Of a stretch of 64,000 bases of DNA, positions 4,900 to 24,746 are shown in pieces. Below the pieces are notes generated by a model. That model had not been told where the DNA came from. It did not search any database and saw only the letters and a list, made by a program, of their open reading frames with translations. Origin of the DNA: Sneathiella marina (GTDB taxonomy: Bacteria; Pseudomonadota; Alphaproteobacteria; Sneathiellales; Sneathiellaceae); assembly GCF_023746535.1 (NCBI RefSeq), contig NZ_CP098747.1, forward strand, positions 2,254,501 through 2,318,500. The letters are read 5' to 3'. A program made the position numbers and the translations under genes. Each line of letters opens with the position of its first letter. Positions within the stretch are counted from its first letter, which is position 1.

Positions 4900-4930
4900 A
4901 TTTACCGGTCACGTTTCTTCGGAAACATTC

Positions 4931-4967
4931 AAGCGCGCAGCTGCAGCCGATGCTGCGCGCTTTTTTC
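4931..4967 (+). terminator. hairpin with T-run between binding-protein and permease genes
   Basis: AAGCGCGCAG (4931-4940) pairs with CTGCGCGCTT (4953-4962), followed by TTTTTTCTT. It lies inside the operon. As in other ABC operons it probably lets the binding protein be made in excess by terminating or stabilising most messages there. Confidence 0.8.
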
Positions 4968-5003
4968 TTCATTAACTTCGTACCCACCTTTTAAGGCTTC
5001 TCT

Positions 5004-5933
5004 ATGAACTGGTTGCTTTTGCTGGAACAAGTATTGAACGGGTTCCAACTCGGTATATTGTTGTTTTTGCTCGCAGCAGGATTGACTCTTGTTTTCGGGA
5101 TAATGGATCTGGTTAATCTGGCCCATGGTTCCCTGTATATGATGGGGGCCTATTTCTGCGCGACATTCACAGGTTGGACAGATTCCTTCCTGTTAGGGGC
5201 GCTTCTGGCTATACCGGCGACGTTTATTTTGGGCATCCTGGTCGAGGTCATAGCCCTTAGGAACTTGTATGCACGCGATCACCTTGATCAGGTTCTGGCA
5301 ACATTTGGCCTGATCCTGTTTTTCAACGAATTCGTCCGTCTTGTCTGGGGCCCTATCGGACTGGATATTCCGCTACCGGCTTTCCTCAATTCCACGGTCG
5401 AGGTTATACCGGGCGTGCCCTACCCGACTTATCGGGTCGCCATTATCCTGATCGGTTTCTTCGTTGCCGGATTGCTTTACGCCATTGTGTCCAAAACCCG
5501 CATGGGCATGTTAATCCGCGCTGGAGCCAGTAACCGGGAAATGATCGGCGCACTCGGGATTAATATCAAGCTCCTCTTTACACTGGTGTTCGGGTTGGGC
5601 GCGGCTTTGGCGGCGCTCGCAGGCCTGATGGCTGGACCAATCCTCTCTGTTGAAATCGGAATGGGAGATGGTATTCTTATCCTGACACTTGTTGTTATCG
5701 TGATCGGTGGGATCGGTTCTATCAAGGGGGCATTTATTGCGGCCATCATTGTCGGACTGATTGATACGGTCGGCCGGTCGTTTTTGCCCGAAATACTAAA
5801 GCTTATGGTTGCCGAGGATAGCGCCGCTACAGCGGCACCCGCCATTTCCTCCATGCTTATCTATATCCTGATGGCACTTGTACTTGCCGTCCGGCCGCAA
5901 GGCCTGTTCCCACCGAAGGGAGTTGGCCGATGA
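5004..5933 (+). CDS. Liv-type ABC transporter permease, LivH family
   Basis: A 309-residue inner-membrane permease with about eight hydrophobic helices. It opens with the LivH pattern QLGILLFLLAAGLTLVFGIMDLVNLAHGSLYMMGAY. A Gly- and Ala-rich EAA-like region GALGINIKLLFTLVFGLG (about residues 180-198) would contact the ATPases. It forms a heterodimeric channel with the next gene, whose ATG overlaps its stop (ATGA at 5930). It follows the binding-protein gene after a hairpin spacer of 104 bases. Confidence 0.9.
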   Translation: MNWLLLLEQVLNGFQLGILLFLLAAGLTLVFGIMDLVNLAHGSLYMMGAYFCATFTGWTDSFLLGALLAIPATFILGILVEVIALRNLYARDHLDQVLATFGLILFFNEFVRLVWGPIGLDIPLPAFLNSTVEVIPGVPYPTYRVAIILIGFFVAGLLYAIVSKTRMGMLIRAGASNREMIGALGINIKLLFTLVFGLGAALAALAGLMAGPILSVEIGMGDGILILTLVVIVIGGIGSIKGAFIAAIIVGLIDTVGRSFLPEILKLMVAEDSAATAAPAISSMLIYILMALVLAVRPQGLFPPKGVGR

Positions 5934-6922
5934 GTATGTCCCCCCGCGTTCTGATCAACAGCGCCTTGATCCTTTTACTGGCCCTGGTCCCCTTTATTGC
6001 CGAGATGATCGATGACAGTTTCTATGTGGGCCTGACCACTCGCATCCTCATTCTGGCCATCGCCGCCCTTAGCCTCAATCTGTTAATCGGATATGGCGGA
6101 ATGGTCAGTTTTGGCCACGCTGCCTATATTGGCGTTGGTGCCTATATGGTTGGGATTGGTGCCTTTCATGCCTTTGAAGACGGTGTTGACTGGATGCTGA
6201 ACGGCTATGTTCAGCTATTCGGTGCAATCTTTGGCTCAGCGGTCATCGCGCTGGTCATTGGTGCCATCAGCCTTCGAACCCGCGGTGTTTACTTTATTAT
6301 GATCACCATGGCCTTTTCCCAGATGCTGTATTTCACTGCAGTCGGGGTGGAAACCTATGGCGCCGATGATGGCCTCAGCATCTATTCACGCAGCGATATG
6401 TTGGGTCTGATCGATATGAGCAATGAAAACAGCCTGTATTATCTGGTCTTCTTCTCCTTGCTCATTCTGCTTTACCTCATGCACCGATTAGTCGGTTCGC
6501 AGTTCGGAAATGTGATCCGCGGTAGTAAATCCAATGAAGCCCGCATGCGATCCATTGGTTTTTCCCCATATAAATATCGTCTGGTCGCCTTTGTCATCGC
6601 TGGCACCATCGCAGGATATGCCGGGTTTCTGATGGCCAACCTGAATGATTTTGTCAGCCCCGACATGATGCATTGGACCCGATCCGGTGATTTGATCATC
6701 ATGATTGTTCTTGGCGGTATCGGCAACTTGTTCGGCCCTTTATATGGGGCAGTCGCCTTTCTCATGCTCGAAGAACTCCTGTCCTCAATCCCGTTGACGA
6801 TCGGTGGATTGCGTGTCGGGGAATATTGGCAACTTTTGTTTGGCCCTCTCCTCATCATCATTGTCCTTTATGCCCGCAACGGCATCGACAGCTTCCTGCC
6901 CGGAAAAGATAAACGCTCATGA
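5930..6922 (+). CDS. Liv-type ABC transporter permease, LivM family
   Basis: A 330-residue membrane permease of the LivM group. NLLIGYGGMVSFGHAAYIGVGAY (about residues 46-68) is the family signature, and the contact loop RSIGFSPYKYRLVAFVIAG lies near 205-223. It overlaps the LivH-type gene by four bases and the ATPase gene that follows by four bases, so translation is probably coupled. It pairs with LivH to form the transmembrane path. Confidence 0.9.
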   Translation: MSMSPRVLINSALILLLALVPFIAEMIDDSFYVGLTTRILILAIAALSLNLLIGYGGMVSFGHAAYIGVGAYMVGIGAFHAFEDGVDWMLNGYVQLFGAIFGSAVIALVIGAISLRTRGVYFIMITMAFSQMLYFTAVGVETYGADDGLSIYSRSDMLGLIDMSNENSLYYLVFFSLLILLYLMHRLVGSQFGNVIRGSKSNEARMRSIGFSPYKYRLVAFVIAGTIAGYAGFLMANLNDFVSPDMMHWTRSGDLIIMIVLGGIGNLFGPLYGAVAFLMLEELLSSIPLTIGGLRVGEYWQLLFGPLLIIIVLYARNGIDSFLPGKDKRS

Positions 6923-7668
6923 GTACAGATCTTCTCATCATCGAAAATATGGTCAAACGCTATGGCGGGTTACTGGCAACCGATACCCTGTCACTCACTG
7001 TCCGGCAAGGAGAGCTTCACGCCATTATCGGTCCTAATGGTGCTGGCAAGACAACCCTCATCAAGCAGCTGACCGGCGAGATCCAGTCCGATGCTGGTTC
7101 GGTAACCTTCGCCGGACGGCAAATCCGCCGAATGTCAGAACCTGCGCGCTCCCACCTTGGGCTCGCGCGGTCGTTTCAGATCACGTCGTTGTTCCAGAAT
7201 TTCTCGGTCCTGGAGAATATTACACTTGCCGTTCAAGCCCATCAGGGCCATTCCTTCCGCTTCTGGCGCCCGGCAAATAAAACGCCCTCGCTTGTCGAGC
7301 CTGCGCTTAAAACCCTTCGGCAGATGGGCCTGGAAAACAAGAAGGACACCATTGTTTCTGCTCTCAGCCACGGTGAGCAACGCCAGCTTGAACTGGCCGT
7401 CGCCCTGGCCACTAATCCGAAAATGCTGCTACTCGATGAACCCATGGCGGGGATGTCCGTGGAAGACAGCGCCAATCTGGTCACGATCCTGAAATCCCTA
7501 AAGGAGCAATATTCCATTCTTTTGATTGAGCATGATATGGACGCCGTCTTCAGTCTTGCTGATCGGATCACAGTTCTGGTGTATGGCAAGGCTATTGCCA
7601 CCGGCACGCCGGAAGAAATTCGTCAGAATCCGGAAGTCCGCCAGGCCTATCTCGGCGAGGATGCGTAA
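6919..7668 (+). CDS. Liv-type ABC transporter ATP-binding protein, LivG family
   Basis: A 249-residue cytoplasmic ATPase. Walker A GPNGAGKTT is at 38-46, the family-specific signature LSHGEQRQLE near 151-160, Walker B LLLDEPMAGM just after, and the H-loop His in LIEHDMD. The signature has H in place of the second G, which is common in LivG proteins. It starts within the LivM-type gene (ATGA). Confidence 0.9.
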   Translation: MSTDLLIIENMVKRYGGLLATDTLSLTVRQGELHAIIGPNGAGKTTLIKQLTGEIQSDAGSVTFAGRQIRRMSEPARSHLGLARSFQITSLFQNFSVLENITLAVQAHQGHSFRFWRPANKTPSLVEPALKTLRQMGLENKKDTIVSALSHGEQRQLELAVALATNPKMLLLDEPMAGMSVEDSANLVTILKSLKEQYSILLIEHDMDAVFSLADRITVLVYGKAIATGTPEEIRQNPEVRQAYLGEDA

Positions 7669-7670
7669 AT

Positions 7671-8372
7671 ATGCTTGAAGTCAATTCCATAAATACATTC
7701 TATGGCCAAAGTCAGGTGCTGTTCGGCATGTCCTTGAAAATAGCCGCCGGGGAAGTGGTGACCCTGATGGGCCGCAACGGCATGGGAAAAACCACCACAG
7801 TGCGTTCCATTATGGGGCTGACCGCAGCCCAATCCGGTGAGATCCTGTTTGAAGGAACCAACATCACGGCACTGCCTTCCTATAAGATCGCCAGACTTGG
7901 CATCGGTCTTGTCCCGGAGGGGCGCCTGATTTCCCCCAATTTGGATGTTTTGGAAAATCTGGTGGCAACTGCCTATGTCGGCCGCGATGGAAAAGGTAAC
8001 TGGAGCCTCGATCGGGTTCTCGAGCTATTTCCCCGGCTTCGCGAACGTAAAACCAGCATGGGAAATCAGTTGTCGGGGGGTGAACAGCAAATGCTGGCCA
8101 TTGCCCGCGCCCTAATGACCAACCCGGAATTGCTCATTCTCGATGAGGCCACTGAAGGATTAGCCCCGCTAATCCGTGAAGAAATTTGGACCTGCCTCGC
8201 CGGTCTGAAACAAGAAGGCCAGTCAATTCTGGTGATTGACAAGAACGTTCAGGCTCTCAGTAAATTCGCGGATCGCCACTATATCATGGAAAAAGGACAA
8301 GTGGTTTGGGAAGGCAACTCAACCTCTCTAGTTGAGGATGATGAAGTAAAATACAAGTATTTAGGGATTTAA
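7671..8372 (+). CDS. Liv-type ABC transporter ATP-binding protein, LivF family
   Basis: A 233-residue ATPase. Walker A GRNGMGKTT is at 34-42, the LivF-typical GLVPEGR near 81-87, signature LSGGEQQML near 125-133, and Walker B LLILDEATEGLAP. The H-loop position reads VIDKNV, as in many LivF proteins, where Lys replaces the usual His. It begins two bases after LivG's stop and closes the importer; no strong terminator follows. Confidence 0.9.
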   Translation: MLEVNSINTFYGQSQVLFGMSLKIAAGEVVTLMGRNGMGKTTTVRSIMGLTAAQSGEILFEGTNITALPSYKIARLGIGLVPEGRLISPNLDVLENLVATAYVGRDGKGNWSLDRVLELFPRLRERKTSMGNQLSGGEQQMLAIARALMTNPELLILDEATEGLAPLIREEIWTCLAGLKQEGQSILVIDKNVQALSKFADRHYIMEKGQVVWEGNSTSLVEDDEVKYKYLGI

Positions 8373-10515: not shown

Positions 10516-10980
10516 ATGGCGGATAATGAAAGCCTTTCACCCGAAGATGTAGCGAAAACAGTTGCGGAGACCATGTATCGAAAGGATATCGCTGCGCAAC
10601 ATCTTGGGATTGCCCTTAAGGAAATCGGACCGGGCCGGGCTGTCATGACAATGCGGGTTACAGACACCATGTTGAACGGTCACAATATCTGTCACGGCGG
10701 GTACGTCTTTACCCTTGCCGATACCGCTTTCGCCTATGCCTGCAATGCGTATAATCAAAATGCAGTGGCTCAATCCGCACAAATAAATTTCCTGAAAGCA
10801 GTCGCTCCAGATACTCTATTAACAGCAACGGCAGAAGAACAATCAAGAACCGGTCGAACGGGCTTGTATGACATTACGGTTACCAATGAGCAGGATGACA
10901 TCGTTGCTCTTTTCCGCGGTAACTCTCACACTATTAAGGGTCAAATGATCCCGGGTCTCACATCGAAAGAAGAAAAATGA
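10516..10980 (+). CDS. paaI: hydroxyphenylacetyl-CoA thioesterase, PaaI type
   Basis: A 154-residue hot-dog thioesterase. The ATG at 10516 follows the paaG stop by one base; a longer reading would run into paaG. The signature NICHGGYVFTLADTAFAYACN near residues 56-76 carries the catalytic Asp and is characteristic of PaaI. The enzyme is thought to rescue CoA from dead-end hydroxyphenylacetyl-CoA products. It overlaps the thiolase gene by four bases (ATGA). Confidence 0.88.
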   Translation: MADNESLSPEDVAKTVAETMYRKDIAAQHLGIALKEIGPGRAVMTMRVTDTMLNGHNICHGGYVFTLADTAFAYACNAYNQNAVAQSAQINFLKAVAPDTLLTATAEEQSRTGRTGLYDITVTNEQDDIVALFRGNSHTIKGQMIPGLTSKEEK

Positions 10981-12179
10981 AAAATGCATATATTTGTGAC
11001 GCGACAAGAACACCAATTGGCCGCTATGGCGGTTCCCTGTCGGCCGTCCGGCCCGACGATCTCGGTGCGATTCCCATCAAGGCTTTGATGGAGAGAAACC
11101 CGTCTGTTGACTGGGAGAAGGTCGACGACGTGATCTTTGGTAATGCCAATCAAGCCGGAGAAGACAATCGGAATGTTGCCCGCATGAGCTCCTTATTGGC
11201 GGGATTGCCGGATACAGTGTCCGGTGCAACCATCAACCGTTTATGCGGATCCGGCATGGACGCCACGGCAACAGTCGCCCGGCAAATTATGACAGGTGAA
11301 GCCGAGCTGGGAATTTCTGGCGGTGTGGAAAGCATGAGCCGAGCGCCATTTGTTATGGGGAAAGCCACAGCAGCATTTTCGCGCAATGCAGAAGTCTATG
11401 ACACAACCATTGGCTGGCGTTTCGTTAATAAGAAAATGCATGAGGGTTTTGGAACTGATTCAATGCCTGAAACCGCTGAAAATGTCGCAGAGGATTATCA
11501 GGTCCGACGGGAAGATCAGGATCTTTTTGCCCTGCGTAGTCAGGAAAAAGCCGCTGCAGCTCAAGAAAATGGGATGTTGGCGGAAGAAATCACTCCGGTT
11601 CATATTCCCCAACGAAAAGGCGATCCCATTGTTGTTGATCGCGATGAACATCCGCGGGCAACGAGTATCGAAAAACTGGCTGCCCTGAAGGCACCGTTCC
11701 GTGCTGGAGGGTCGGTGACCGCCGGTAACGCATCCGGTGTCAATGATGGCGCCTGCGCTATTTTGCTGGCATCTGAAGAAGCCATCGAAAAATACGGCCT
11801 GACCGCAAAAGCACGGGTTGTTGGCGCAGCCACAGCCGGCGTTCCTCCCCGTATCATGGGGATGGGTCCCGCCCCGGCCAGCAAGAAGCTTCTCGAGCGC
11901 TTGGGACTCAGTATTGACGAAATGGATGTTATTGAACTGAATGAAGCTTTTGCTGCCCAAGGTCTTGCTGTCATGCGGGAACTGGGTTTGAAAGATGACG
12001 ATCCAAGGGTCAATCCCTTAGGCGGCGCCATTGCCCTGGGCCATCCCTTGGGAATGTCGGGCGCGCGTTTGATCACAACGGCCATGTATCAGCTGCAACG
12101 GACAGGTGGACGGTATGCCCTTTGCACCATGTGCATCGGCGTCGGTCAGGGTATCGCGACTGTAATTGAGCGGATATAA
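10977..12179 (+). CDS. paaJ: 3-oxoadipyl-CoA/3-oxo-5,6-dehydrosuberyl-CoA thiolase
   Basis: A 400-residue thiolase, the same length as E. coli PaaJ. The acyl-accepting Cys is in NRLCGSGMDA (about residue 90), the His is in GGAIALGHPLGMSGAR, and the second Cys is in CTMCIGVGQG near the C-terminus. These enzymes release acetyl-CoA and succinyl-CoA at the end of the phenylacetate or beta-ketoadipate pathway. Position between paaI and paaK favours PaaJ; PcaF of the protocatechuate pathway is the alternative because the two are hard to separate by sequence. Confidence 0.87.
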   Translation: MKNAYICDATRTPIGRYGGSLSAVRPDDLGAIPIKALMERNPSVDWEKVDDVIFGNANQAGEDNRNVARMSSLLAGLPDTVSGATINRLCGSGMDATATVARQIMTGEAELGISGGVESMSRAPFVMGKATAAFSRNAEVYDTTIGWRFVNKKMHEGFGTDSMPETAENVAEDYQVRREDQDLFALRSQEKAAAAQENGMLAEEITPVHIPQRKGDPIVVDRDEHPRATSIEKLAALKAPFRAGGSVTAGNASGVNDGACAILLASEEAIEKYGLTAKARVVGAATAGVPPRIMGMGPAPASKKLLERLGLSIDEMDVIELNEAFAAQGLAVMRELGLKDDDPRVNPLGGAIALGHPLGMSGARLITTAMYQLQRTGGRYALCTMCIGVGQGIATVIERI

Positions 12180-12204
12180 CCACTAATCATACTAAGATGA
12201 GGGA

Positions 12205-13506
12205 ATGATGCGTCTAACACCACCGACACATGCGGAGCTGGATCCCATTGAAATAGCCAGTCGCGATGAAATATCAGCCTTACAGGTTGAACGTTTAAAA
12301 ACCAGTCTTGCGCATAGTTATGCGAATGTCCCGCTGTTTAAAGACAGGTTTGATGCGGCTGGTGTTCACCCTGAAGACTTTCATTCCCTTGAAGATCTCG
12401 CGAAGTTTCCATTTTGTAAAAAACAGGACCTTCGCGATAACTATCCTTTTGGAATGGTCGCTGTTCCAAAATCAGACATTGTTCGCTTTCACGCTTCTTC
12501 CGGTACAACGGGGCGTGCGACGGTTGTCGCCTACACGCAAAATGATATTGATAACTGGGCAGATTTGGGAGCCAGATCAATCAGGGCATGTGGTGGAACG
12601 CGAGATCACACAGTCCATGTAACCTATGGATATGGCCTTTTCACAGGCGGTCTGGGTGCACACTATGGGGCAGAGCGTCTCGGTTGCGCCGTTGTTCCCA
12701 TGTCTGGCGGCCAAACAGAGCGTCAGGTGCAGGTGATAAATGACTTCGGTGCGGACATTATTATGGTGACCCCTTCCTACATGCTCGCCATTGCAGAAGA
12801 ATATGAACGTCAAGGAATTGATCCTAGAAAAAGCCCCTTAAAAGCCGGTATTTTTGGAGCCGAACCCTGGACCAACGCCATGAGGGAGCAAATTGAAGAC
12901 CGTTTCGATATTGATGCTTTGGATATTTACGGACTATCTGAAGTAATGGGCCCCGGTGTGGCTGTTGAATGTCTGGAATCCAAAGATGGCCCGGTGATTT
13001 GGGAAGATCATTTTTATCCGGAAATCATAGATCCAGATACCGGAGAGGTTCTTCCTGACGGAGAGCAAGGTGAGCTCGTTTTTAGTTCTCTTACGAAAGA
13101 AGCATTTCCCGTCATACGCTACAGAACGGGAGATTTATCAAGATTGCTGCCTGGAACCTCCAGATCCATGCGCCGAATGGAAAAGATAACCGGCCGGACA
13201 GACGATATGTTGATAATCAGGGGTGTAAATCTATTTCCGTCGCAAGTTGAGGAACTGGTTGTTCAGACCGGCGGATTATCCGCACATTATGTTCTGGAAG
13301 TACGGCGTGAGGGCGCGTTGGATACGTTGACAGTCCGCGTAGAACGCGATTTATCTGCCACACCCGATGACGCAACAGCCAAAGAACTGCAACATAGAAT
13401 AAAGGGAGTGCTTGGGGTCAGCGCTGCCATTGACATTTGCGAACCAGGATCGATCGACAGATCGCTGGGTAAGGCAAAACGAGTATTGGATCTTCGTAAA
13501 ATTTAA
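12205..13506 (+). CDS. paaK: phenylacetate-CoA ligase
   Basis: A 433-residue adenylate-forming enzyme that activates phenylacetate to phenylacetyl-CoA using ATP. The phosphate-binding loop SSGTTGRATVV is near residues 99-109. The AMP-binding YGLSEVMGPG segment lies near 246-255, the adenylation hinge YRTGDLSRL further on, and the C-terminal lid carries the conserved RGVNLFPSQVEE. GAGGGA precedes the ATG. It closes the short paaG-I-J-K run and is the one committed step that ties the run to phenylacetate rather than to another aromatic. Confidence 0.9.
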   Translation: MMRLTPPTHAELDPIEIASRDEISALQVERLKTSLAHSYANVPLFKDRFDAAGVHPEDFHSLEDLAKFPFCKKQDLRDNYPFGMVAVPKSDIVRFHASSGTTGRATVVAYTQNDIDNWADLGARSIRACGGTRDHTVHVTYGYGLFTGGLGAHYGAERLGCAVVPMSGGQTERQVQVINDFGADIIMVTPSYMLAIAEEYERQGIDPRKSPLKAGIFGAEPWTNAMREQIEDRFDIDALDIYGLSEVMGPGVAVECLESKDGPVIWEDHFYPEIIDPDTGEVLPDGEQGELVFSSLTKEAFPVIRYRTGDLSRLLPGTSRSMRRMEKITGRTDDMLIIRGVNLFPSQVEELVVQTGGLSAHYVLEVRREGALDTLTVRVERDLSATPDDATAKELQHRIKGVLGVSAAIDICEPGSIDRSLGKAKRVLDLRKI

Positions 13507-15810: not shown

Positions 15811-15830
15811 TTGAATATCACCATATTCAA
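15811..15830. promoter_or_regulatory. palindromic candidate operator before the LysR gene
   Basis: A perfect 8+4+8 palindrome, TTGAATAT-CACC-ATATTCAA, ends 15 bases before the GTG start of the LysR gene and just before its AGGAA ribosome-binding site. It contains T-N11-A, the LysR-type consensus form. The same TTGAAT-N8-ATTC spacing recurs at 16838-16855 before the operon downstream, so it is probably the regulator's own site. Confidence 0.6.
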
Positions 15831-15845
15831 TAGGAATAATTTATC

Positions 15846-16754
15846 GTGCAGGAAAATCTCAGTTTAATACAATTGCAGACCTTTTTATGGGTGACCTCTC
15901 TAAGAAGCTTTCGCAAAACAGCGGAAAAAATGAATGCAACGCAACCTGCCATATCATCGCGCATCGCCAAACTTGAAGAAATTTTGGGTGTTCGGTTGTT
16001 TGAACGAGATACAGGTCAAATACGTCTGACGGCCAAAGGACTTGAACTCTTACCGTACGCTGAGAAAATGCTCCGCACTTCCACGCTTTTGCGAGATCGT
16101 ATCGGAGATACGACAACTATTTCCGGGATTTTACGACTGGGAGTATCTGAAACCATCGTTCATACATGGTTGCCGCAGTTTATTTCGGGTCTCCACAATA
16201 GATTTCCGGATGTGGATGTCGAGATTATGGTGGATGCAACAATCAACTTGAGGCGGGAATTGACGGAACGCTCACTTGATTTCGCCTTTTTAATGGGACC
16301 GGTTTCAGAATTTCACATTGAAAACTATGACCTTATGGATTTTTCCTTGATATGGGCCGCCTCACCGGAACTGCAGATTCCAATAGAAAAACAGCTATCT
16401 TTGGCGGAGTTGGCGAAATTCCCGTTTTTAACCTATGCACGCAACACTCGGCCTTATGCAGAAATCACACGTCAACTGCGACAAACAACAGAACTGCCGA
16501 CCCGGATTTTCCCGTCCAGTTCTCTGGCCGCTATTCTAAGAATGACCCTTGATGGCATTGGCATTGCAACTCTTCCCAAGGCCATGATAAAACGAGAATT
16601 GGAAACTGGAAAATTACAGGAAATTAAATCCGACTGGGTACCTTCGGCCTTAAAATTCACGGCCTCTTATCCAACAGATCCTTATAATCCCATCACTGAA
16701 AAAGTTGTCAGTCTTGCATTGGAAATCACTCAAAATTACCAAAATAGGGGCTAA
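15846..16754 (+). CDS. LysR-family transcriptional regulator of the TRAP/oxoprolinase island
   Basis: A 302-residue LysR regulator. The winged helix-turn-helix is at about residues 6-65 (FLWVTSLRSFRKTAEKMNATQPAISSRIAKLE) and the remainder is a periplasmic-binding-like effector domain. The start is GTG with AGGAA upstream. It precedes, on the same strand, a DUF1445-family gene, a TRAP importer and an oxoprolinase gene, separated by 250 to 270 AT-rich bases that carry a related palindrome. A role as their activator or repressor, with the transported compound or its product as effector, is inferred from position and shared sites. Confidence 0.87.
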   Translation: MQENLSLIQLQTFLWVTSLRSFRKTAEKMNATQPAISSRIAKLEEILGVRLFERDTGQIRLTAKGLELLPYAEKMLRTSTLLRDRIGDTTTISGILRLGVSETIVHTWLPQFISGLHNRFPDVDVEIMVDATINLRRELTERSLDFAFLMGPVSEFHIENYDLMDFSLIWAASPELQIPIEKQLSLAELAKFPFLTYARNTRPYAEITRQLRQTTELPTRIFPSSSLAAILRMTLDGIGIATLPKAMIKRELETGKLQEIKSDWVPSALKFTASYPTDPYNPITEKVVSLALEITQNYQNRG

Positions 16755-16837
16755 ATTTAAAATTTCTGAACCAAAATCTGTCTTCTTAATCATATTTTTG
16801 ATTTTAGAATAATTATTAAAAATAAGCCGCAACTTGT

Positions 16838-16855
16838 TGAATTTGAACAAATTCT
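16838..16855. promoter_or_regulatory. second candidate LysR site before the DUF1445-TRAP-oxoprolinase operon
   Basis: TTGAAT-N8-ATTC occurs again here, with an inner perfect palindrome GAATTTG-AA-CAAATTC at 16840-16855. It is the only obvious match to the site at 15811-15830 in the 270-base region between the LysR gene and the first structural gene. Confidence 0.55.
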
Positions 16856-16883
16856 CTAAATATGTATTTAAAAATCTACTTTT

Positions 16884-16902
16884 TGATAAAAATTATTTAT
16901 CA
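16884..16902. repeat. AT-rich inverted repeat in the same upstream region
   Basis: TGATAAA (16884-16890), AATTA, TTTATCA (16896-16902): seven paired bases per arm. It may be an accessory regulator site or part of the promoter. Because the region is very AT-rich, it could be chance. Confidence 0.3.
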
Positions 16903-17022
16903 GAACGAGTAAATTTTAAGAATTAGAATTTATTTCGATGATGTGAAATAACATTCCCAACGAACAGGCTGAAATTTCTGAAAACTGGAATTCAGTAAGG
17001 AAAATTGGGGATATTAGCTAAC

Positions 17023-17856
17023 ATGACAAAAAGTGACGCTGCTGAACTCTTCCAGCAACTGAAAAACTGCTCCCCTGACGAAATCCGCTCCACCATTCGG
17101 CGCGGCGACTATTGCGGGCAGACATCCGGGCTCGGGCTCGGGTATCTGCAAGGTAATGTCGCGATTGTTCCTTCAAAAAATGCACTAGATTTCTTCCGGT
17201 TTTGCCAGAGAAATCCGAAACCTTGCCCTTTAATTGGCGTCACGGATGGGGGCAGTTCCCTGCTGAACGATCTTGGTAAGGACGTAGATATCAGAAGTGA
17301 CGTCCCTGCCTACAACATTTACCGCAACGGTGATCTCGTTGAAACTACACTCGATATCAGCAACATCTGGACAAATGATCTTGTCGCATTCGTTCTCGGT
17401 TGCTCGTTTTCCTTTGAGGAGGCGTTGATTTCTGAAGGCATCCCGTTACGGCATATGGAAGAAAACAAGACGGTTCCCATGTATCGTACAAATATTGCAA
17501 CGACAGCGGCAGGGCCTTTCACCGGGCCGCTGGTCGCGTCCATGCGACCGATGTCGCAAATAGACGCTATTCGGGCCGTAAATATTACATCCCGCTTTCC
17601 GCAGGCCCATGGATCGCCCGTTCATGTCGGAGATCCAAAAACAATCGGCATATCAAATATCGATGCGCCGGATTGGGGGGACGCGACAGAAATCAAGGCC
17701 GGAGAGGTTCCTGTTTTCTGGGCCTGCGGTGTCACGCCACAAGCGGCAATCCGGTCCGCAAAGCTACCCATTTTCATTTCACATGCACCGGGGCACATGC
17801 TGATCACGGACATAAAAAGCTGGGATACCACCCGGCTACAAGACCCGAACCTTTAA
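17023..17856 (+). CDS. DUF1445/UPF0317 family protein (D-glutamate cyclase-like, putative hydro-lyase)
   Basis: A 277-residue protein of the UPF0317 family, which databases label putative hydro-lyase and which shares its domain family with mammalian D-glutamate cyclase (that enzyme makes 5-oxo-D-proline). Recognisable blocks are RRGDYCGQTSGLGLGYLQGN (about 26-45), LGCSFSFEEAL (about 125-135) and MYRTNI near 155. The C-terminal block reads CGVTPQAA followed by ISHAPGHMLITD. The ATG at 17023 is taken because GGGGA lies upstream; a TTG at 17005 is possible. It heads the TRAP-oxoprolinase operon, and the combination points to 5-oxoproline or D-glutamate chemistry. The exact reaction is not proved. 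Confidence 0.82.
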   Translation: MTKSDAAELFQQLKNCSPDEIRSTIRRGDYCGQTSGLGLGYLQGNVAIVPSKNALDFFRFCQRNPKPCPLIGVTDGGSSLLNDLGKDVDIRSDVPAYNIYRNGDLVETTLDISNIWTNDLVAFVLGCSFSFEEALISEGIPLRHMEENKTVPMYRTNIATTAAGPFTGPLVASMRPMSQIDAIRAVNITSRFPQAHGSPVHVGDPKTIGISNIDAPDWGDATEIKAGEVPVFWACGVTPQAAIRSAKLPIFISHAPGHMLITDIKSWDTTRLQDPNL

Positions 17857-17895
17857 CCACTAACCAAACCTCTAATCCTAACAGGGAGAAACACT

Positions 17896-18951
17896 ATGAA
17901 AACATTTGTAAAACTCGGCTCCGCCGCTGCCATGCTAGCAGCGGTCAGCCTTTTCGGATTATCAGCGCAAGCAGATGATCCAATTGTCATCAAGGGCGTT
18001 GGCACCTGGGGCAGCTTGACCAATTATCAAAAGCATGAAGGGCCCTTCTGGAACGAAAAAATTGCAGCCGCGACTAATGGCATGATTACCGGAGACATCA
18101 AGCCGCAAACCGAGCTCGGCTTGAAAGGCTTCGAAATTATGCGCCTGTTAAAGCTAGGTGTCTATGACTACGCCTATGGTCTGCCAGGGTATGTTGCCGC
18201 GGAAAACCCGGTTTTTGAAGGAGGCGATCTTTCCTCGGTCACTCAGGATATCGCGACACAGCGCAAAGTAGCGGAAGCATATTTTCCAATTCTGGAAAAG
18301 GCCGTGGCCGAAACTTATAACGCAAAACTGTTGCAGCTTTACCCATTTCCAAGCCAGATGCTGTGGTGCAAAGGCGCCATCAATAACATTGGTGACTTAA
18401 AGGGTAAGAAAATTCGTGTTTATGCAACAACCCTTGGTGATTTCGTAGAAGGTGTTGGCGGCACAAGCGTCACGGTGCCATTTGCGGAAGTCATTCCTGC
18501 GCTTGAAAAAGGCGTTGTCGATTGCGGCATCACCGGGACAATGTCCGCATATAAAGCAAAATGGTATCAAGTTGCAGATCATGCCTACACCATGCGTGTT
18601 GGATGGGGTTTGGCGTTTGGCGCCATGAATATGGACAAATGGAACGATCTGGGCGCCGAAAAACAGGCCGCGTTGAAAACCGAACTGGATAAGCTCACAG
18701 ACGCAATGTGGGACGAAACAGCAAAAGAAGATGCGATCGCATTGGATTGCCTGTCTGGTAAAAAATGTGACATCGGTGAAAAGGCAAACATGACGTTGGT
18801 TACGCCAAGTGACGCCGATCTTAAAGTTCGGGATCAGATAGCCTCAGATGTCATTCTTGCTCGTTGGGCAGAACGCTGTGGTGATGATTGCGCGAAAAAC
18901 TGGAATGCATCCGTTGGCACGATCATCGGTATGGACGCCACAAAAAAGTAA
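17896..18951 (+). CDS. TRAP transporter solute-binding protein, DctP family
   Basis: A 351-residue periplasmic binding protein with a clear signal peptide (MKTFVKLGSAAAMLAAVSLFG, cleavage near SAQADD). The family core is visible: GDLKGKKIRVY carries the conserved Arg that salt-bridges a substrate carboxylate. GVVDCGITGTMSAYKAKWYQ follows about 45 residues on. Four or more Cys in the mature part (for example LDCLSGKKCD and ERCGDDC) suggest disulphides, unusual for DctP proteins. It starts 39 bases after the DUF1445 gene behind AGGGAGAA. A carboxylic acid such as 5-oxoproline or a D-amino acid is the likely ligand by context. Confidence 0.88.
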   Translation: MKTFVKLGSAAAMLAAVSLFGLSAQADDPIVIKGVGTWGSLTNYQKHEGPFWNEKIAAATNGMITGDIKPQTELGLKGFEIMRLLKLGVYDYAYGLPGYVAAENPVFEGGDLSSVTQDIATQRKVAEAYFPILEKAVAETYNAKLLQLYPFPSQMLWCKGAINNIGDLKGKKIRVYATTLGDFVEGVGGTSVTVPFAEVIPALEKGVVDCGITGTMSAYKAKWYQVADHAYTMRVGWGLAFGAMNMDKWNDLGAEKQAALKTELDKLTDAMWDETAKEDAIALDCLSGKKCDIGEKANMTLVTPSDADLKVRDQIASDVILARWAERCGDDCAKNWNASVGTIIGMDATKK

Positions 18952-18964
18952 AGAAGTTTGCTCA

Positions 18965-18991
18965 GGGTGGCAGCCAGACCGGCCGCCACCC
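18965..18991 (+). repeat. GC-rich hairpin after the TRAP binding-protein gene
   Basis: GGGTGGC (18965-18971) pairs with GCCACCC (18985-18991), with further possible pairing inside the loop. It is followed by only a short CTTTC tract. It sits 13 bases after the DctP-family stop and before the DctQ gene, where such hairpins protect the message for the abundant binding protein. Confidence 0.5.
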
Positions 18992-19017
18992 TTTCAATTA
19001 CTAAAAGGGCATTTCTC

Positions 19018-19584
19018 ATGTTAAATACGCTTTTGACAGGCTGCGAAGGAATATCAAAAAGACTTGTCTGGCTCGGTGGCATATTACTTATCGGGGCCGC
19101 TTTTCTGGTTACAATTGACGTGTTTGTTCGTAAATTGTTCAACATAAGCCTCGCGGGCTCTGATGAATTGTCAGGATATGCTTTTGGTATGTCCACCAGC
19201 TTGGCCTTCGCTTATGCAATAATCACCCGATCCAATATTCGCGTAGACGCTTTCTACCATCTCTTTCCCCATTGGGCGCGGATTGCCTCAGATATCATCG
19301 GACTGGCCCTTCTCCTCGGGTTTATGGGGTTAATGGCTTATCTGGGCTTCAATCTGTTGGCAGATAGCTATTTTCATGGGTCTCGTTCTATTACACCTTT
19401 AAGAACCCCCCTCGCGATCCCACAGACCGTTTGGTGGTTTGGTCTGGCATTTGCCCTCGCCACCGGTGGATTGATCCTAATTGCCTCGTTAGTTGCTGTT
19501 TTCCAAAAGGACTGGACCGCGATCCAAAGATTGGTCGGCGTAAAATCCGTCGATGAACAAATCACTGAAGAAACAGTCGAATAA
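19018..19584 (+). CDS. TRAP transporter small permease, DctQ family
   Basis: A 188-residue membrane protein with four predicted helices, the usual DctQ design. The ATG at 19018 has AAGGG eight bases upstream and gives the expected short cytoplasmic N-terminus; a longer TTG reading would overlap the hairpin. The family's central FVRKLFNISLAGSDELSGYAF region is near residues 36-56. It partners with the DctM-type protein that follows after 13 bases. Confidence 0.88.
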   Translation: MLNTLLTGCEGISKRLVWLGGILLIGAAFLVTIDVFVRKLFNISLAGSDELSGYAFGMSTSLAFAYAIITRSNIRVDAFYHLFPHWARIASDIIGLALLLGFMGLMAYLGFNLLADSYFHGSRSITPLRTPLAIPQTVWWFGLAFALATGGLILIASLVAVFQKDWTAIQRLVGVKSVDEQITEETVE

Positions 19585-19597
19585 AGGGGATGATCAA

Positions 19598-20887
19598 ATG
19601 TTAATTCATGCAGTAATAGTCCTGATGGGCCTGGTCGCTCTCGGAATTCCAATAGCAGCTGCACTCGGCTGGCTTGCTCTTTCCCTAAACTTCACATTCA
19701 GTTCCAGCCCCCTTTATTTGGCGCTGGGAGATATTGCCTGGCAGAATAGCACTGAATTCCTGCTCGTCGCCATTCCCATGTTTGTCCTGCTCGGCGAAAT
19801 TCTCCTGCGCTCGGGTATTGCCTCAAAAATGTACGAAGGCATGGTCCAATGGCTTGGCTGGTTACCTGGTGGGCTGATGCATTCAAACATCGGCGCCTGC
19901 TCTTTATTTGCGGCAACATCCGGCTCAAGTGTCGCAACGGCCGCGACCATTGGTACGGTGGCCCTTCCGGAAGTGAACAAACGTAAATATAACGAGAGAT
20001 TATTTCTCGGCACATTAGCTGCCGGCGGTACCCTCGGAATCCTGATCCCGCCGTCGATCAATCTTATTCTCTACGGGCTTCTTACAGACACATCCGTTCC
20101 CGAACTTTATCTCGCCGGGTTCTTACCAGGCATGTTACTGGCCGGCCTGTTTATGTTGACCGTAATCATTGCCTGTACCTTCAAAAAAAGCTGGGGCGGC
20201 ACAAAAGTAGAGGTCACTTGGTCCTCTCGCATTGCAAGCTTACCCGGTCTGGTGCCTCCCCTCGGAATATTTGTCGTCGTCGTTGGCTCCATATATGCTG
20301 GTCTTGCAACACCTACGGAAGCTGCGTCGTTGGGTGTTGTTGCGGCTATGGCCCTCGCCGCCGCCAATAAATCACTGACAATTGAAATGCTGAAAGGCGC
20401 AATTGAAGGAACAATGCGGACAACGGCTATGATCATGCTGATTATTCTTGCGGCAATATTCCTGAATTTCATTCTTGCCACCATCGGCCTGACACAAGCC
20501 CTGACCCAGTTCATCATTAGTCTTGGCTTAAGCCCCTTTGAAACCATGCTCATGATCATCGGTTTCCTAATCCTGCTTGGCTGTTTTATGGAAACATTAT
20601 CCATGCTCCTGACAACCGCGCCATTATTGGCCCCGATTATTATTCAGCTTGGCTATGATCCGGTCTGGTTTGGCATCCTGCTCATGGTCCTTTTGGAAAC
20701 AGCTTTGATCACGCCGCCCATCGGTATCAATCTCTATGTGGTTCAAGGTATCCGGAAATCCGGGCGGCTAAACGACGTGATGATCGGTACCCTGCCCTTC
20801 GTTCTAACCATGTTTGTGATGATCGGTATGCTTCTGGCATTTCCACAAATTGCCTTATGGCTCCCTGAACTCGTATACTCACGTTAA
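19598..20887 (+). CDS. TRAP transporter large permease, DctM family
   Basis: A 429-residue permease with about twelve helices, which carries the sodium-coupled translocation path. AGGGGA at 19585-19590 fits the ATG at 19598. Family blocks include FVLLGEILLRSGIASKMYEG, a Gly/Ala/Thr-rich loop AATSGSSVATAATIGTVALPEV, and LGILIPPSINLILYG. A late TALITPPIGINLYVVQGI completes them. The order P-Q-M with an oxoprolinase directly after is unusual enough to suggest substrate rather than coincidence. Confidence 0.9.
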   Translation: MLIHAVIVLMGLVALGIPIAAALGWLALSLNFTFSSSPLYLALGDIAWQNSTEFLLVAIPMFVLLGEILLRSGIASKMYEGMVQWLGWLPGGLMHSNIGACSLFAATSGSSVATAATIGTVALPEVNKRKYNERLFLGTLAAGGTLGILIPPSINLILYGLLTDTSVPELYLAGFLPGMLLAGLFMLTVIIACTFKKSWGGTKVEVTWSSRIASLPGLVPPLGIFVVVVGSIYAGLATPTEAASLGVVAAMALAAANKSLTIEMLKGAIEGTMRTTAMIMLIILAAIFLNFILATIGLTQALTQFIISLGLSPFETMLMIIGFLILLGCFMETLSMLLTTAPLLAPIIIQLGYDPVWFGILLMVLLETALITPPIGINLYVVQGIRKSGRLNDVMIGTLPFVLTMFVMIGMLLAFPQIALWLPELVYSR

Positions 20888-20908
20888 ATATATCTAAGGA
20901 ACAAGAGA

Positions 20909-23900
20909 ATGTGGCAAATCTGGATTGACCGCGGCGGGACCTTTACGGACATCGTCGGAAAGCGCCCTGATGGACGTCTGGTATCCCATAAATTGCTGTC
21001 AGAAAATCCCGAGCGTTATAAGGATGCTGCCGTACAGGGTATAAAAGACCTTCTGGCGCAAGAGAGCGATCTGTTTGACCCGTCGACACAGATTGAAAAC
21101 ATCAAGATGGGTACGACCGTCGCCACTAACGCCCTTTTGGAACGCAAGGGTGATCGTACCCTTTATGTGACCAGCCAGGGTTTTGGCGATGCGCTCCGCA
21201 TCGGGTATCAAAGTCGGCCCCGTATTTTTGACCTTGATATTAAACTACCGGAGCTTCTGTACGAACAGGTAATCGAGGCTGAAGAACGCATAGACGCGCA
21301 TGGCACCATCTTGGTATCGCTCAATAAAAAGACGTTAAAAGCCAAGATGATTTCGGCTTATGAGCAAGGTATTCGGTCCATCGCGATCGCCTTTATGCAT
21401 GGTTATAAATATACTGAACATGAGGTACAAGCCGCAGAAATTGCTGAACAAATCGGGTTTACTCAGATTTCAACGAGCCACGCTGTAAGCCCGTTGATCA
21501 AGCTAATTGCCCGAGGTGACACCACTATGGTGGATGCGTATCTTTCTCCCATTTTACGGCGCTACGTAAATCAGGTTAAAGATGAATTAGGCATGTCGGA
21601 AGCGTCCGAAAACAATCCAAGATTGATGTTCATGCAATCAAATGGCGGCCTGACAGATGCCAGCCTGTTTCAAGGTAAAGACGCCATCCTGTCTGGTCCG
21701 GCTGGCGGTGTCGTCGGCATGACCCGGACTGCCGCTATGAGTAACCTGACAAAACTTATCGGCTTTGATATGGGCGGAACCTCCACGGACGTCACCCATT
21801 ACGAAGGAAATTACGAACGCAGTTTCGAAACGGAAGTCGCTGGCGTACGCATGCGCGCACCGATGATGCATATACATACAGTAGCAGCCGGCGGGGGATC
21901 CATTTTACAGTTTGACGGATCGCGGTACCGTGTGGGCCCTGAATCTGCCGGTGCCAATCCCGGTCCGGCCTGTTACCGACGCGGCGGCAGACTGGCAGTC
22001 ACCGATTGCAATGTGATGCTTGGAAAAATACAGCCGGAATATTTTCCGAAAGTATTCGGACCCGATGCCGATGAGTCTTTGGACAGCCAGGCAGTCCGCA
22101 ACAGATTTATCGAAATGGCAGATCAGATAGCCGGGTCAACAAATTCACCCGCACCGTCGCCAGAAGAAGTGGCCGAAGGGTTTTTGAAAATCGCCGTGGA
22201 GAATATGGCAAATGCCGTAAAGCAAATATCTGTCCAACGCGGGTATGATATCACGGAATATACCCTGAACTGCTTTGGCGGTGCCGGCGGTCAGCATGCC
22301 TGCCTGGTGGCTGATGCTCTGGATATGAAAAGCGTCTTTATCCATCCGTTTGCCGGGGTTCTTTCCGCGTATGGAATGGGACTTGCCGACGTGAGAGCCA
22401 TGCGTGAAGCCCAGCTTGACCTGCCGTTTAACGCCGACTTACAAAACCAATTGATTGCCGTTAGTGCCCCGTTGACGAAAGATGCACAAGCTGAAGTCCT
22501 GGCGCAAGGCATACCCAAAGAAAACTTGAGCTATATCCAGCAGGTACATCTGCGGTATGAGGGTACAGATACATCAATATTGATTGATCTTGGGTCGGTC
22601 GAAAGCATGAAAGAAGCATTTGAAGCAGCCCATCACAAACGTTTTGGATTTATAGCGGAAAACCGGGGGTTGGTTGCGGAAGCGCTTTCGGTGGAGGTTA
22701 TAGGTGTTACGGAAACGGAAATCGATCCCCTATCGGATTTACCACAATCTTCAGGCGAAGCGACAGCACTGGATGATGTCGATATGTATGTTAATGGGGA
22801 TTGGCAAAAGGTTTCCTTATATGACCGCGAAGCAATTCGACCCGGTGAAACCGTCACTGGGCCAGCCATTATTACAGAATCTACCGGAACCATTGTCGTC
22901 GAAGAGGGATGGCGTGCGACACTCAATACAAGGTTACATTTGATTGTTAGCCGATATAAGGACAAGGCGCAGCTGAAAGCCATCGGGACCGACGCAGACC
23001 CGGTTATGTTGGAAGTGTTCAATAACCTATTTATGTCCATTGCCGAGCAGATGGGCGCGACACTTTCCAATACGGCTTATTCCGTCAATATCAAGGAGCG
23101 GCTGGATTTCTCTTGCGCGATCTTCGATCAAGCAGGCAATCTGGTCGCCAACGCTCCACATGTACCGGTACATTTGGGCTCTATGGGTGAATCCATCAAA
23201 ACCGTTATCACGGAAAACACCGGACAAATGAAACCGGGGAACGTTTATGCCTTGAACGCACCCTATAACGGAGGAACACATCTTCCTGATGTCACGGTCA
23301 TCACACCGGTCTTCGACCAGCAAGGGGAGAAAATCCTGTTCTATGTTGGCTCACGAGGGCACCATGCGGATATCGGTGGCCGCACACCGGGTTCCGCACC
23401 TCCCGATAGCCAGGTTATTGAAGAAGAAGGCGTCCTTATCGATAATTTTCTACTTGTTGAAGAAGGTCGCTTTCGCGAAACCGAAACACGTGCCCTGCTC
23501 GCCTCCGGCAAATACCCTTGTCGTAACCCGGATCATAATATTGCAGATCTAACAGCCCAGATCGCCGCCAATGAAACCGGCGTGCAGGAAGTTCGCAAAA
23601 TGATCCGTCAGTTCGGGTTTGCTGTGGTCGAAGCCTATATGCGTCATGTACAGGACAATGCCGAAGAATCCGTCCGTCGTGTGCTGGATGTGTTGAAGGA
23701 CGGATCCTTTTTATATCCTCTGGATAACGGAACACAAATTAAAGTCGACATTTCCGTCAATCGCGCTAACCGGGATGCGACCATCGATTTTACTGGCACA
23801 TCGGATCAGATTGCAGGAAATTACAATGCGCCTATCGCTATCTGCAAGGCAGCGGTGCTTTACGTTTTCAGAACACTGGTCGGCGATGATATTCCCCTCA

Positions 23901-24532
23901 ACGAAGGATGCATGAAGCCATTGAAGATTATTGTGCCGGAACGGAGCATGATAAATCCCCAATACCCGGCCGCTGTCATTGCAGGGAATACCGAGGTGTC
24001 ACAAGCCATAACCGATGCTTTGTATGGTGCTTTGGGGATTCTGGCGTCCAGTCAGGGCACGATGAATAATTTCGTCTATGGCAATGATATTCATCAAAAC
24101 TACGAAACTATCTGCGGCGGAACCGGCGCCGGCTCTGATCATAATGGAGCGGATGCCGTGCACAGTCATATGACAAACACCAGAATGACAGATCCGGAAG
24201 TATTGGAGCAACGGTTTCCTGTTCGAATTGAGGAATTCTCAATCCGTCAAAACTCCGGTGGAAATGGCGCATTCAAAGGTGGCAACGGAGCAATTCGAAA
24301 AATGAAATTTCTGGAGCCCATGACAGTTACGATCCTTTCATCACACCGAGATACAGACCCCTATGGCATGGCCGGAGGAAACGCTGGCCAAAGAGGGATA
24401 AATTATGCAATTCTTAACAATGGTAAGGTAGTGTCATTAAGTGGTAACTCTGAATCCAACCTGTCGGCCGGAGACATGATTGTAATTGAAACCCCCGGTG
24501 GTGGCGGATTTGGACGCGTAACTGAAAAGTAG
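20909..24532 (+). CDS. 5-oxoprolinase (ATP-hydrolysing), fused HyuA-HyuB type
   Basis: A 1207-residue protein with the full eukaryote-like 5-oxoprolinase arrangement. An N-terminal hydantoinase A/oxoprolinase ATPase half (DRGGTFTDIVG at residues 7-17, FDMGGTSTDV near 290, FGGAGGQHAC near 455) is joined to a C-terminal HyuB half from about residue 690 (NNLFMSIAEQMGATLSNTAYS and later GSRGHHADIGG). The ATPase half phosphorylates the lactam and the other half completes ring opening, giving L-glutamate from 5-oxo-L-proline. The related N-methylhydantoinases and acetophenone carboxylases are usually separate subunits, so the fusion favours oxoprolinase, though hydantoin or another lactam remains possible. 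It follows the TRAP genes after 21 bases. Confidence 0.88.
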   Translation: MWQIWIDRGGTFTDIVGKRPDGRLVSHKLLSENPERYKDAAVQGIKDLLAQESDLFDPSTQIENIKMGTTVATNALLERKGDRTLYVTSQGFGDALRIGYQSRPRIFDLDIKLPELLYEQVIEAEERIDAHGTILVSLNKKTLKAKMISAYEQGIRSIAIAFMHGYKYTEHEVQAAEIAEQIGFTQISTSHAVSPLIKLIARGDTTMVDAYLSPILRRYVNQVKDELGMSEASENNPRLMFMQSNGGLTDASLFQGKDAILSGPAGGVVGMTRTAAMSNLTKLIGFDMGGTSTDVTHYEGNYERSFETEVAGVRMRAPMMHIHTVAAGGGSILQFDGSRYRVGPESAGANPGPACYRRGGRLAVTDCNVMLGKIQPEYFPKVFGPDADESLDSQAVRNRFIEMADQIAGSTNSPAPSPEEVAEGFLKIAVENMANAVKQISVQRGYDITEYTLNCFGGAGGQHACLVADALDMKSVFIHPFAGVLSAYGMGLADVRAMREAQLDLPFNADLQNQLIAVSAPLTKDAQAEVLAQGIPKENLSYIQQVHLRYEGTDTSILIDLGSVESMKEAFEAAHHKRFGFIAENRGLVAEALSVEVIGVTETEIDPLSDLPQSSGEATALDDVDMYVNGDWQKVSLYDREAIRPGETVTGPAIITESTGTIVVEEGWRATLNTRLHLIVSRYKDKAQLKAIGTDADPVMLEVFNNLFMSIAEQMGATLSNTAYSVNIKERLDFSCAIFDQAGNLVANAPHVPVHLGSMGESIKTVITENTGQMKPGNVYALNAPYNGGTHLPDVTVITPVFDQQGEKILFYVGSRGHHADIGGRTPGSAPPDSQVIEEEGVLIDNFLLVEEGRFRETETRALLASGKYPCRNPDHNIADLTAQIAANETGVQEVRKMIRQFGFAVVEAYMRHVQDNAEESVRRVLDVLKDGSFLYPLDNGTQIKVDISVNRANRDATIDFTGTSDQIAGNYNAPIAICKAAVLYVFRTLVGDDIPLNEGCMKPLKIIVPERSMINPQYPAAVIAGNTEVSQAITDALYGALGILASSQGTMNNFVYGNDIHQNYETICGGTGAGSDHNGADAVHSHMTNTRMTDPEVLEQRFPVRIEEFSIRQNSGGNGAFKGGNGAIRKMKFLEPMTVTILSSHRDTDPYGMAGGNAGQRGINYAILNNGKVVSLSGNSESNLSAGDMIVIETPGGGGFGRVTEK

Positions 24533-24542
24533 AGAATGTAAG

Positions 24543-24746
24543 ATGAGTGCTTTTATTTTTTCTGTATACAACGCTAAAGTTCGTGAGGCTGTTAAAGACA
24601 ATCAGGAACATCCTCATATTTCAGAACGCTGGGCTTCGCCTTGCATGTTTGAAGTAGAGGCAGATAGTGCAACAGCAGCCGAAGATTGCGTTAAGAAAAA
24701 ATACCCGGCAGCAGAAGGCTTTGTGACTAAACGAATTGAAAACTAG
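24543..24746 (+). CDS. small protein of unknown function downstream of the oxoprolinase
   Basis: A 67-residue soluble protein not recognised from any family. It begins 10 bases after the oxoprolinase stop and is convergent with sthA. It has two Cys (about residues 34 and 49) and an alternating Lys/Glu composition. No strong Shine-Dalgarno is seen, but the tight spacing suggests it belongs to the operon. Confidence 0.5.
   Translation: MSAFIFSVYNAKVREAVKDNQEHPHISERWASPCMFEVEADSATAAEDCVKKKYPAAEGFVTKRIEN

Follow-up and report, generated by a model that had tools for sequence, protein, structure and literature searches.

The enzyme PxpABC acts as the 5-oxoprolinase of Corynebacterium glutamicum and Bacillus subtilis (PMC13274462; PMC10448178), receptor genes of Bordetella lie near a gene for a eukaryotic-type 5-oxoprolinase (PMC13274462, a 2026 paper), and in Acinetobacter baumannii a DUF1445 gene stands beside LamB/YcsF and allophanate-hydrolase-like genes (PMC2848557). 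In this work, we analyzed a stretch of 64,000 nucleotides of the Sneathiella marina genome (contig NZ_CP098747.1, positions 2,254,501 to 2,318,500; hereafter the window), which contains an operon on the forward strand made up of genes for a LysR-type regulator, a DUF1445 protein, the DctP, DctQ and DctM components of a tripartite ATP-independent periplasmic (TRAP) transporter, a fused OPLAH-type enzyme of 1207 residues and a 67-residue open reading frame (ORF). A preliminary description of the sequence had listed these genes; all of them are present, and the family of each was confirmed, that of the 67-residue ORF excepted. The operon probably imports 5-oxoproline (pyroglutamate) and opens it to glutamate, a reading to which we give a probability of roughly 0.78. 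We infer this substrate and the inward direction from an exchange of the ring-opening enzyme in related operons, the structures most similar to the DctP receptor, the relatives of these structures in a Polaromonas operon, and the conserved ATP and metal residues of the fused enzyme.

Of the 25 genomes of the family, nine have a DUF1445 gene, S. marina (G000) among them, and the neighborhoods of the other eight were compared over up to 20 kb each, one contig being only 5 kb long. In four of the nine, DUF1445 is followed by DctPQM and the fused enzyme: G000, G004 and G021, with LysR in front, and G013, where a short contig ends before any LysR and inside the enzyme and where three gene frames are broken. 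Three genomes of the same genus (G002, G015 and G023) have an orthologous LysR-DUF1445-DctPQM set, with PxpB-PxpC-PxpA in place of the fused enzyme. The Pxp genes of G015 were recognized by Pfam (CT_C_D, CT_A_B and LamB_YcsF), and those of G002 and G023 were matched to them by tblastn. G018 shows LysR-DUF1445-PxpB-PxpC-PxpA without TRAP genes, and G003, with neither type of 5-oxoprolinase, has a more distant DUF1445-DctPQM set, behind which lie genes for DUF2848, an amidase, IF-2B and a class II aldolase. The window operon itself has no pxpA, pxpB or pxpC. Since PxpABC is a 5-oxoprolinase, the exchange, wherever it occurred, is evidence that both versions of the operon act on 5-oxoproline. The substrates of TRAP transporters and of fused hydantoinase-like enzymes are hard to assign from sequence, and two unrelated 5-oxoprolinases in one operon slot are strong assay-free evidence for both.

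A tree was built from concatenated DctP and DctM sequences of 27 loci, and in it the three Pxp operons make up one clade, nested in a clade of ten rows (support 100/100). The other seven rows, from this family, from two other families (f2 and f67) and from a Rhodospirillaceae record (L019), all have the fused enzyme. The window group pairs with a locus of another family (L131; 91/86) and not with the Pxp operons found in its genus, and the branching order at the root of these ten rows is not resolved. By this topology, the ring opener was swapped once in the past of the operon, most simply from the fused enzyme to PxpBCA, either within the genus or before a transfer into it; a placement of the exchange in one branch of this genus was also considered, and the tree does not settle it. 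By parsimony, the DUF1445 tree (86 rows, with L030 left out because of a bad ORF pick) needs at least four changes between fused enzyme and PxpABC, a number that depends on many weak forks. Moreover, L118 and L119, which are sisters on the TRAP tree, differ in having PxpBCA with DUF2848 and DUF2848 with amidase, respectively.

The fused enzyme (20909..24532) holds the hydantoinase A and B halves in a single chain (Hydant_A_N, PF05378; Hydantoinase_A, PF01968; Hydant_A_C, PF19278; Hydantoinase_B, PF02538), and its 1207 amino acids compare with about 1200-1300 for the OPLAH-type class. Its NCBIfam matches, to caprolactamase and acetophenone carboxylase, were all below threshold. It was aligned with 6yra, which we take to be the caprolactamase CapAB (6yra_A carries the name 5-oxoprolinase, but its residue numbers agree with CapA). 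In this alignment, the ATP-site aspartates D7 and D287 correspond to CapA D11/D295 and the metal tetrad D733, H791, D794 and H818 to CapB D41/H99/D102/H124. The roles of these CapAB residues are described in PMC8453981. All six are the same in each of the 30 full-length rows compared, one of which is the window enzyme. Judged from its four domains and these residues, the window enzyme is most likely an ATP-dependent 5-oxoprolinase, and its exchange with PxpBCA suggests that it would open 5-oxo-L-proline to L-glutamate.

The best PDB sequence match of the enzyme is the N-methylhydantoinase 7hk5, which would fit a substrate other than 5-oxoproline, that is, another lactam or amide such as a hydantoin or an N-acyl compound. 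Related operons with DUF2848 (13 of 60 loci of the class-wide set described below) or amidase (7/60) instead, as well as a Bradyrhizobium-type locus (L038) with Iso_dh and a four-carbon-acid kinase-like gene nearby, point in the same direction. Nevertheless, none of the ten PDB sequence matches listed for the enzyme is known to be a fused 5-oxoprolinase of the OPLAH type, and there was thus no such enzyme to outrank the hydantoinase. Two findings argue for 5-oxoproline: the exchange with PxpBCA, whose activity in B. subtilis and C. glutamicum is that of a 5-oxoprolinase (PMC10448178; PMC13274462), and the pyroglutamate receptors that lead the ranking of the DctP model. We regard a different substrate as rather unlikely.

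The structure of DctP (17896..18951, identified by Pfam and structure comparison) was modeled with AlphaFold2 (pLDDT 91.5). In the comparison of this model with the PDB, the first three rows were DctP7 (2pfy; Z 35.6, 299 residues aligned, 2.5 Å), DctP6 (2pfz; Z 35.2, 300 residues, 2.4 Å) and a marine pyroglutamate receptor (6wgm; Z 33.8, 303 residues, 2.8 Å), each described as pyroglutamate-binding or pyroglutamate-specific. The likeness of the predicted structure to these receptors supports 5-oxoproline as the ligand, although it is no proof. By sequence, DctP has many matches among TRAP receptors, with 2pfy and 2pfz ranking fourth and fifth. Residue R174, presumably the carboxylate-binding arginine, is invariant in 30 of 30 DctP rows, in line with the earlier statement that the receptor keeps such a residue.

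An operon of Polaromonas (L046) has the order LysR-DUF1445-DctP-DctM-DctP-oxoprolinase, with two DctP genes flanking DctM (L046:10794-14696) and no DctQ detected with the query used. The two receptors match 2pfz (E value 2.9e-97) and 2pfy (E value 4.7e-69), and close relatives of the receptors crystallized with pyroglutamate therefore occur in an operon that has both DUF1445 and an oxoprolinase.

Some observations weigh against 5-oxoproline import and opening as the function of the operon. The window DctP is only 20-21% identical to 2pfy, 2pfz and 6wgm, three other receptors (5i5p, 5iga and 4n4u) outrank 2pfy and 2pfz in the sequence search, and the alignment behind the model included DctP6/7-like rows. 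Additionally, 6wgm (Z 33.8) is tied with ranks four and five (33.3), and the ligands of the other rows are only partly known. The S. marina genome also has a second fused enzyme (L098, near 1720 kb of contig C1), a PxpA-PxpB-PxpC set (L099, at about 230 kb) and a HyuAB-like pair (L100, near 1182 kb), so the routine removal of 5-oxoproline does not have to depend on this operon. An enzyme of the window's clade stands by a divergent TRAP system in another genome (G006, locus L110), where no DUF1445 was found, and across the class-wide set the fused enzyme or PxpABC lies near DUF1445 in only 11 of 60 loci (17 of 60 with Hyu-like genes), with TRAP genes in 32.

The clade of the window enzyme comprises L012, L015, L105, L110 and L019. 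Both L105 and L110 have the enzyme beside divergent TRAP genes without DUF1445 nearby, so DUF1445 is a frequent companion of this clade and not a requirement. That the second fused enzyme of the genome belongs to the same clade was considered and rejected: L098 is 61% identical and falls in another clade.

In the route that we propose, the LysR protein would probably turn on a catabolic operon for 5-oxo-L-proline, DctP would capture periplasmic 5-oxoproline, and DctQM would carry it inward. The fused enzyme would then activate the substrate with ATP and open the lactam at its metal site, yielding L-glutamate. The DUF1445 protein, as a cytoplasmic partner, would most likely channel an off-form, either the D-enantiomer or a lactam derived from D-glutamate, into this route.

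The DUF1445 protein (17005..17856; PRK05463, "putative hydro-lyase") was identified by Pfam (PF07286, 219.9 bits), by NCBIfam (putative hydro-lyase, 398.5 bits with a cut-off of 324) and by its homologues of solved structure, 3db9 and 2pif. Its AlphaFold2 model (pLDDT 90.8) matches its own family (2pif, Z 33.6; 3db9, Z 29.1). Outside it, among the families listed, only the NrpR-like protein MJ0159 (3nek) exceeded Z 5 (Z 9.5 over 169 residues, 3.6 Å), and no enzyme of known chemistry did so. In Foldseek, 3nek gave an E value of 1.7e-05 and a TM score of 0.36-0.45 against the model. NrpR binds 2-oxoglutarate (PMC11957540), and it is conceivable that the two proteins share a fold for binding small C5 acids. 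The DUF1445 protein might then not be an enzyme and instead bind 5-oxoproline or a glutamate-like acid, as an accessory protein or as a sensing regulator. We consider such a role improbable, given that the TM score is low, that a best Z of 7 to 8 is usual even for models that lack a clear match, and that the operon already has a LysR regulator. Moreover, 49 residues are invariant in 44 of 44 DUF1445 rows, among them C74, C133, C241, H202, H260 and several Arg and Asp, and 22 of the invariant residues are polar, Cys or Trp. Such a set looks catalytic, more like that of an active site. We tentatively infer that DUF1445 is an enzyme that may make the D-form, or some other off-form, among the pooled lactams available to the L-specific ring opener, an assignment that we hold with less than even confidence. 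The question is narrowed by the finding that a domain known from bacteria to human DGLUCY is kept beside either ring opener.

A link of DUF1445 to the D-form of the substrate is possible in view of gene rows found in other bacteria. D-glutamate cyclase was named after a mouse protein of two domains, DUF1445 and DUF4392, which made 5-oxo-D-proline when purified whole (PMC5339696), and it was suggested along with a structure of DUF4392 that the fusion perhaps serves to carry out sequential steps (PMC5132392). In six gammaproteobacterial loci (L039, L042, L052, L062, L071 and L079; from about position 10001), we found the order DUF1445-PxpA-PxpB-PxpC-DUF4392 on one strand, with 1.8 kb between DUF1445 and PxpA in L042. 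The last gene is PF14336 (DUF4392) in all six (208-243 bits, cut-off 27.9), and DUF1445 and DUF4392 also adjoin in Fischerella. These rows therefore tie both halves of the mammalian D-glutamate cyclase to 5-oxoproline metabolism, and such bacterial systems allow the domain to be tested alone and with its partner.

The same rows, the Pfam name of PF07286 and the product of the mouse protein (PMC5339696) would agree with DUF1445 alone being a D-glutamate cyclase, in an operon for the uptake of D-glutamate or the formation of 5-oxo-D-proline, with ring opening as the next step. In PMC5339696, however, the activity is not assigned to DUF1445 alone, as far as its accessible sections go. No match to DUF4392 (GLUCM-like_C) was obtained in the S. 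marina genome with a search that was positive in the genome of L068, and a tblastn search with the Fischerella DUF4392 protein gave no match in any of the 60 class-wide loci. Production of a D-lactam would also be wasteful beside L-specific oxoprolinases, and we know of no oxoprolinase that is not L-specific. In our opinion a cyclase role of DUF1445 alone is unlikely. The pathway first proposed for this operon thus stands as to import and opening of 5-oxoproline, backed by the exchange with PxpBCA, the likeness of DctP and the conserved catalytic residues. Its D-glutamate step was not borne out, since the mouse activity comes from a two-domain protein and the genome has no DUF4392 match.

A more speculative role is suggested by the invariant cysteines, by the retention of DUF1445 beside both ring openers and by the DUF1445-PxpA-PxpB-PxpC-DUF4392 rows. 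DUF1445 might be a cofactor-free 5-oxoproline racemase or, with DUF4392, provide the second half of a route from D-glutamate over 5-oxo-D-proline to 5-oxo-L-proline, in either case feeding two unrelated families of L-specific 5-oxoprolinases. Two-cysteine racemases place their cysteines at strand-to-helix turns, and two of C74, C133 and C241 occupy such turns in the model. Nevertheless, no racemase was among the fold-search matches of the model, and the mouse protein was reported to make 5-oxo-D-proline with no L-glutamate seen, 5-oxo-L-proline not being mentioned in the section consulted (PMC5339696). This is a long shot.

We surveyed DUF1445 neighborhoods in two sets of loci. Greedy selection of ORFs did not work in part of the GC-rich loci, and neighbors were therefore counted by single-query tblastn, by which distant genes may be missed. 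The named set holds the best 80 of at least 581 candidates encoding a DUF1445 relative, that is, the best matches and not a random sample, with at least 9 kb on both sides in 57 and less in 23 (L018 and G023/L016 share a contig). Of 289 genomes drawn across the class, 62 had a DUF1445 match, 61 of them above the cut-off, and the class set contains 60 of 65 DUF1445 places outside the genus, the five weakest having been dropped. The fused enzyme was counted at an identity of at least 50% in the 80 loci and at least 48% in the 60.

Within 10 kb, the named set has the fused enzyme in 16 loci, two or more Pxp genes in 25, the two types together in one and either type in 40 of 80; by genus or nearest label the proportion is 32/54. 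Pxp genes were found in 13 of 15 Bacillota loci and the fused enzyme in none. TRAP genes occur in 27 of the 80 and together with the fused enzyme in ten. In the class set, eight loci have the fused enzyme, three PxpABC and six Hyu-like genes (both halves in five, the B half alone in L166), compared with DUF2848 in 13, amidase in seven and TRAP in 32. Eight of these 32 TRAP loci have one of the lactamases, 11 have DUF2848, and TRAP and fused enzyme occur together in six of the 60. Across the class, DUF1445 is paired with TRAP more often than with any single ring opener, and the ring opener varies: fused enzyme, PxpBCA, a Hyu-like pair, or DUF2848 with amidase. The three gene types whose pairing had been noted in the window do co-occur elsewhere (10/80 and 6/60); their absence from other genomes had been named as a refutation of the pathway first proposed, and this objection does not hold. 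The idea that DUF1445 is bound to oxoprolinases everywhere was rejected, as neither the fused enzyme nor PxpABC lies within 10 kb in 40 of the 80 named loci and in 49 of the 60 of the class.

As decoys we used 57 other genes of the window, whose median was zero matched loci in both sets. In the class set the top decoy matched eight of 60 loci, whereas the oxoprolinase query gave 14, its Hyu-like matches counted, and DctM gave 32. Among the 80 named loci, three LIV-type ATP-binding cassette (ABC) decoys matched 17, 23 and 23, above the 16 of the oxoprolinase, and the other decoys six at most. Bradyrhizobium-type loci account for 13, 16 and 16 of these LIV-type matches; LivH or LivG was matched by tblastn in all 16 such loci, and the fused enzyme or two Pxp genes in none of the 16 stretches examined. 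In L038, Pfam recognized a branched-chain-type ABC system. DUF1445 may serve other acids in these loci.

Other arrangements were seen during this survey. DUF1445 and TRAP genes occur with DUF2848 and amidase in L017 (9502-17157), L033, L037, L057, L119, L133 and L155; L017 also has IF-2B-family and class II aldolase genes, and L057 a fused oxoprolinase further on. In the Rhodospirillaceae locus L020 (9950-14572), a gamma-glutamyltranspeptidase gene lies just 3' of DUF1445, with no oxoprolinase found near.

The window operon begins with the LysR gene (15846..16754; PF00126 and PF03466), whose GTG start is at 15846; position 15811, where the region first described begins, is only a promoter-like site. 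LysR has an equivalent position in the operons of L010-L013, L015 and L016, and its product is probably the regulator of the operon. The 250 bp between LysR and DUF1445 (16755..17004) are likely the promoter/operator region of the operon; inverted repeats are present in it, but they are AT-rich and unproven. The DUF1445 ORF opens with TTG and has an ATG six codons further in, at 17023, which is likely the true start. DctP, DctQ and DctM all stand together by Pfam, with the small permease subunit DctQ (PF04290) at 18958..19584 and the large subunit DctM (PF06808; TIGR00786 above cut-off) at 19553..20887, the latter with an internal ATG about 15 codons into its ORF. From DUF1445 on, the intergenic distances are 39, 6, -32, 21 and 10 bp.

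The 67-residue ORF (24543..24746) has no match in Pfam or NCBIfam. Both L012 (63%) and L015 (79%) have it conserved 3' of this enzyme, and its differences from L015 fall at codon positions 1, 2 and 3 in 11, 4 and 33 cases, a coding-like pattern. It is probably a gene, because it is kept after the same enzyme and differs mainly at third positions. Promoter-like sites in the region numbered 18, against 13.2 (standard deviation 4.3) in shuffled sequences, and terminator-like sites 8, against 10.7 (3.4). As both counts are near the shuffle values, the borders of the operon rest on spacing and conservation. Upstream, the window has LIV-type ABC transporter genes (3628-8372) and a thiolase gene adjoining one for an AMP-binding ligase (10977-13506).

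The pairing of genes in this operon is less new than the preliminary description held, since pyroglutamate TRAP receptors near an OPLAH gene (PMC13274462), ycsI in a pxpABC operon (PMC10448178) and the A. baumannii row (PMC2848557) are in print. We found no description of a DUF1445-TRAP-fused-oxoprolinase operon, of the PxpBCA exchange or of the DUF1445-PxpABC-DUF4392 row in a literature search outside of which most subscription papers lie. This kind of operon is thus known in outline, and within that search neither its specific set of genes nor the replacement of one ring opener by an unrelated one was found in print. The exchange and the DUF4392 rows should be useful to specialists rather than startling.

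B. subtilis gives a PF07286 match, and YcsI is presumably its DUF1445 protein. The pxpA-ycsG-ycsI-pxpBC operon of that species resembles the window operon in placing DUF1445 together with a 5-oxoprolinase, but the enzyme is PxpABC and not the fused one, the manganese importer YcsG stands where the window has TRAP, and the regulators are others (PMC10448178). In C. glutamicum, pxpTABC with PxpR is likewise a dedicated system for uptake and opening of 5-oxoproline with a local regulator, but it uses a carrier of the APC superfamily, a GntR regulator and PxpABC (PMC13274462); the terms "DUF1445" and "ycsI" are absent from the main text of that paper. The mammalian protein DGLUCY (9030617O03Rik) shares the DUF1445 domain, and its second domain, DUF4392, is unmatched in the S. 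marina genome (PMC5339696; PMC5132392). CapAB belongs to the superfamily of the window enzyme and has the same ATP and metal residues, but it consists of two subunits and acts on caprolactam (PMC8453981). In Bordetella pertussis, DctP6 and DctP7 (2pfz and 2pfy) combine, as in the window, a TRAP receptor of the same fold with an OPLAH-type enzyme in one region (PMC13274462), whereas the window operon has a single receptor instead of two, about 20% identical to them, and DUF1445 in the same operon.

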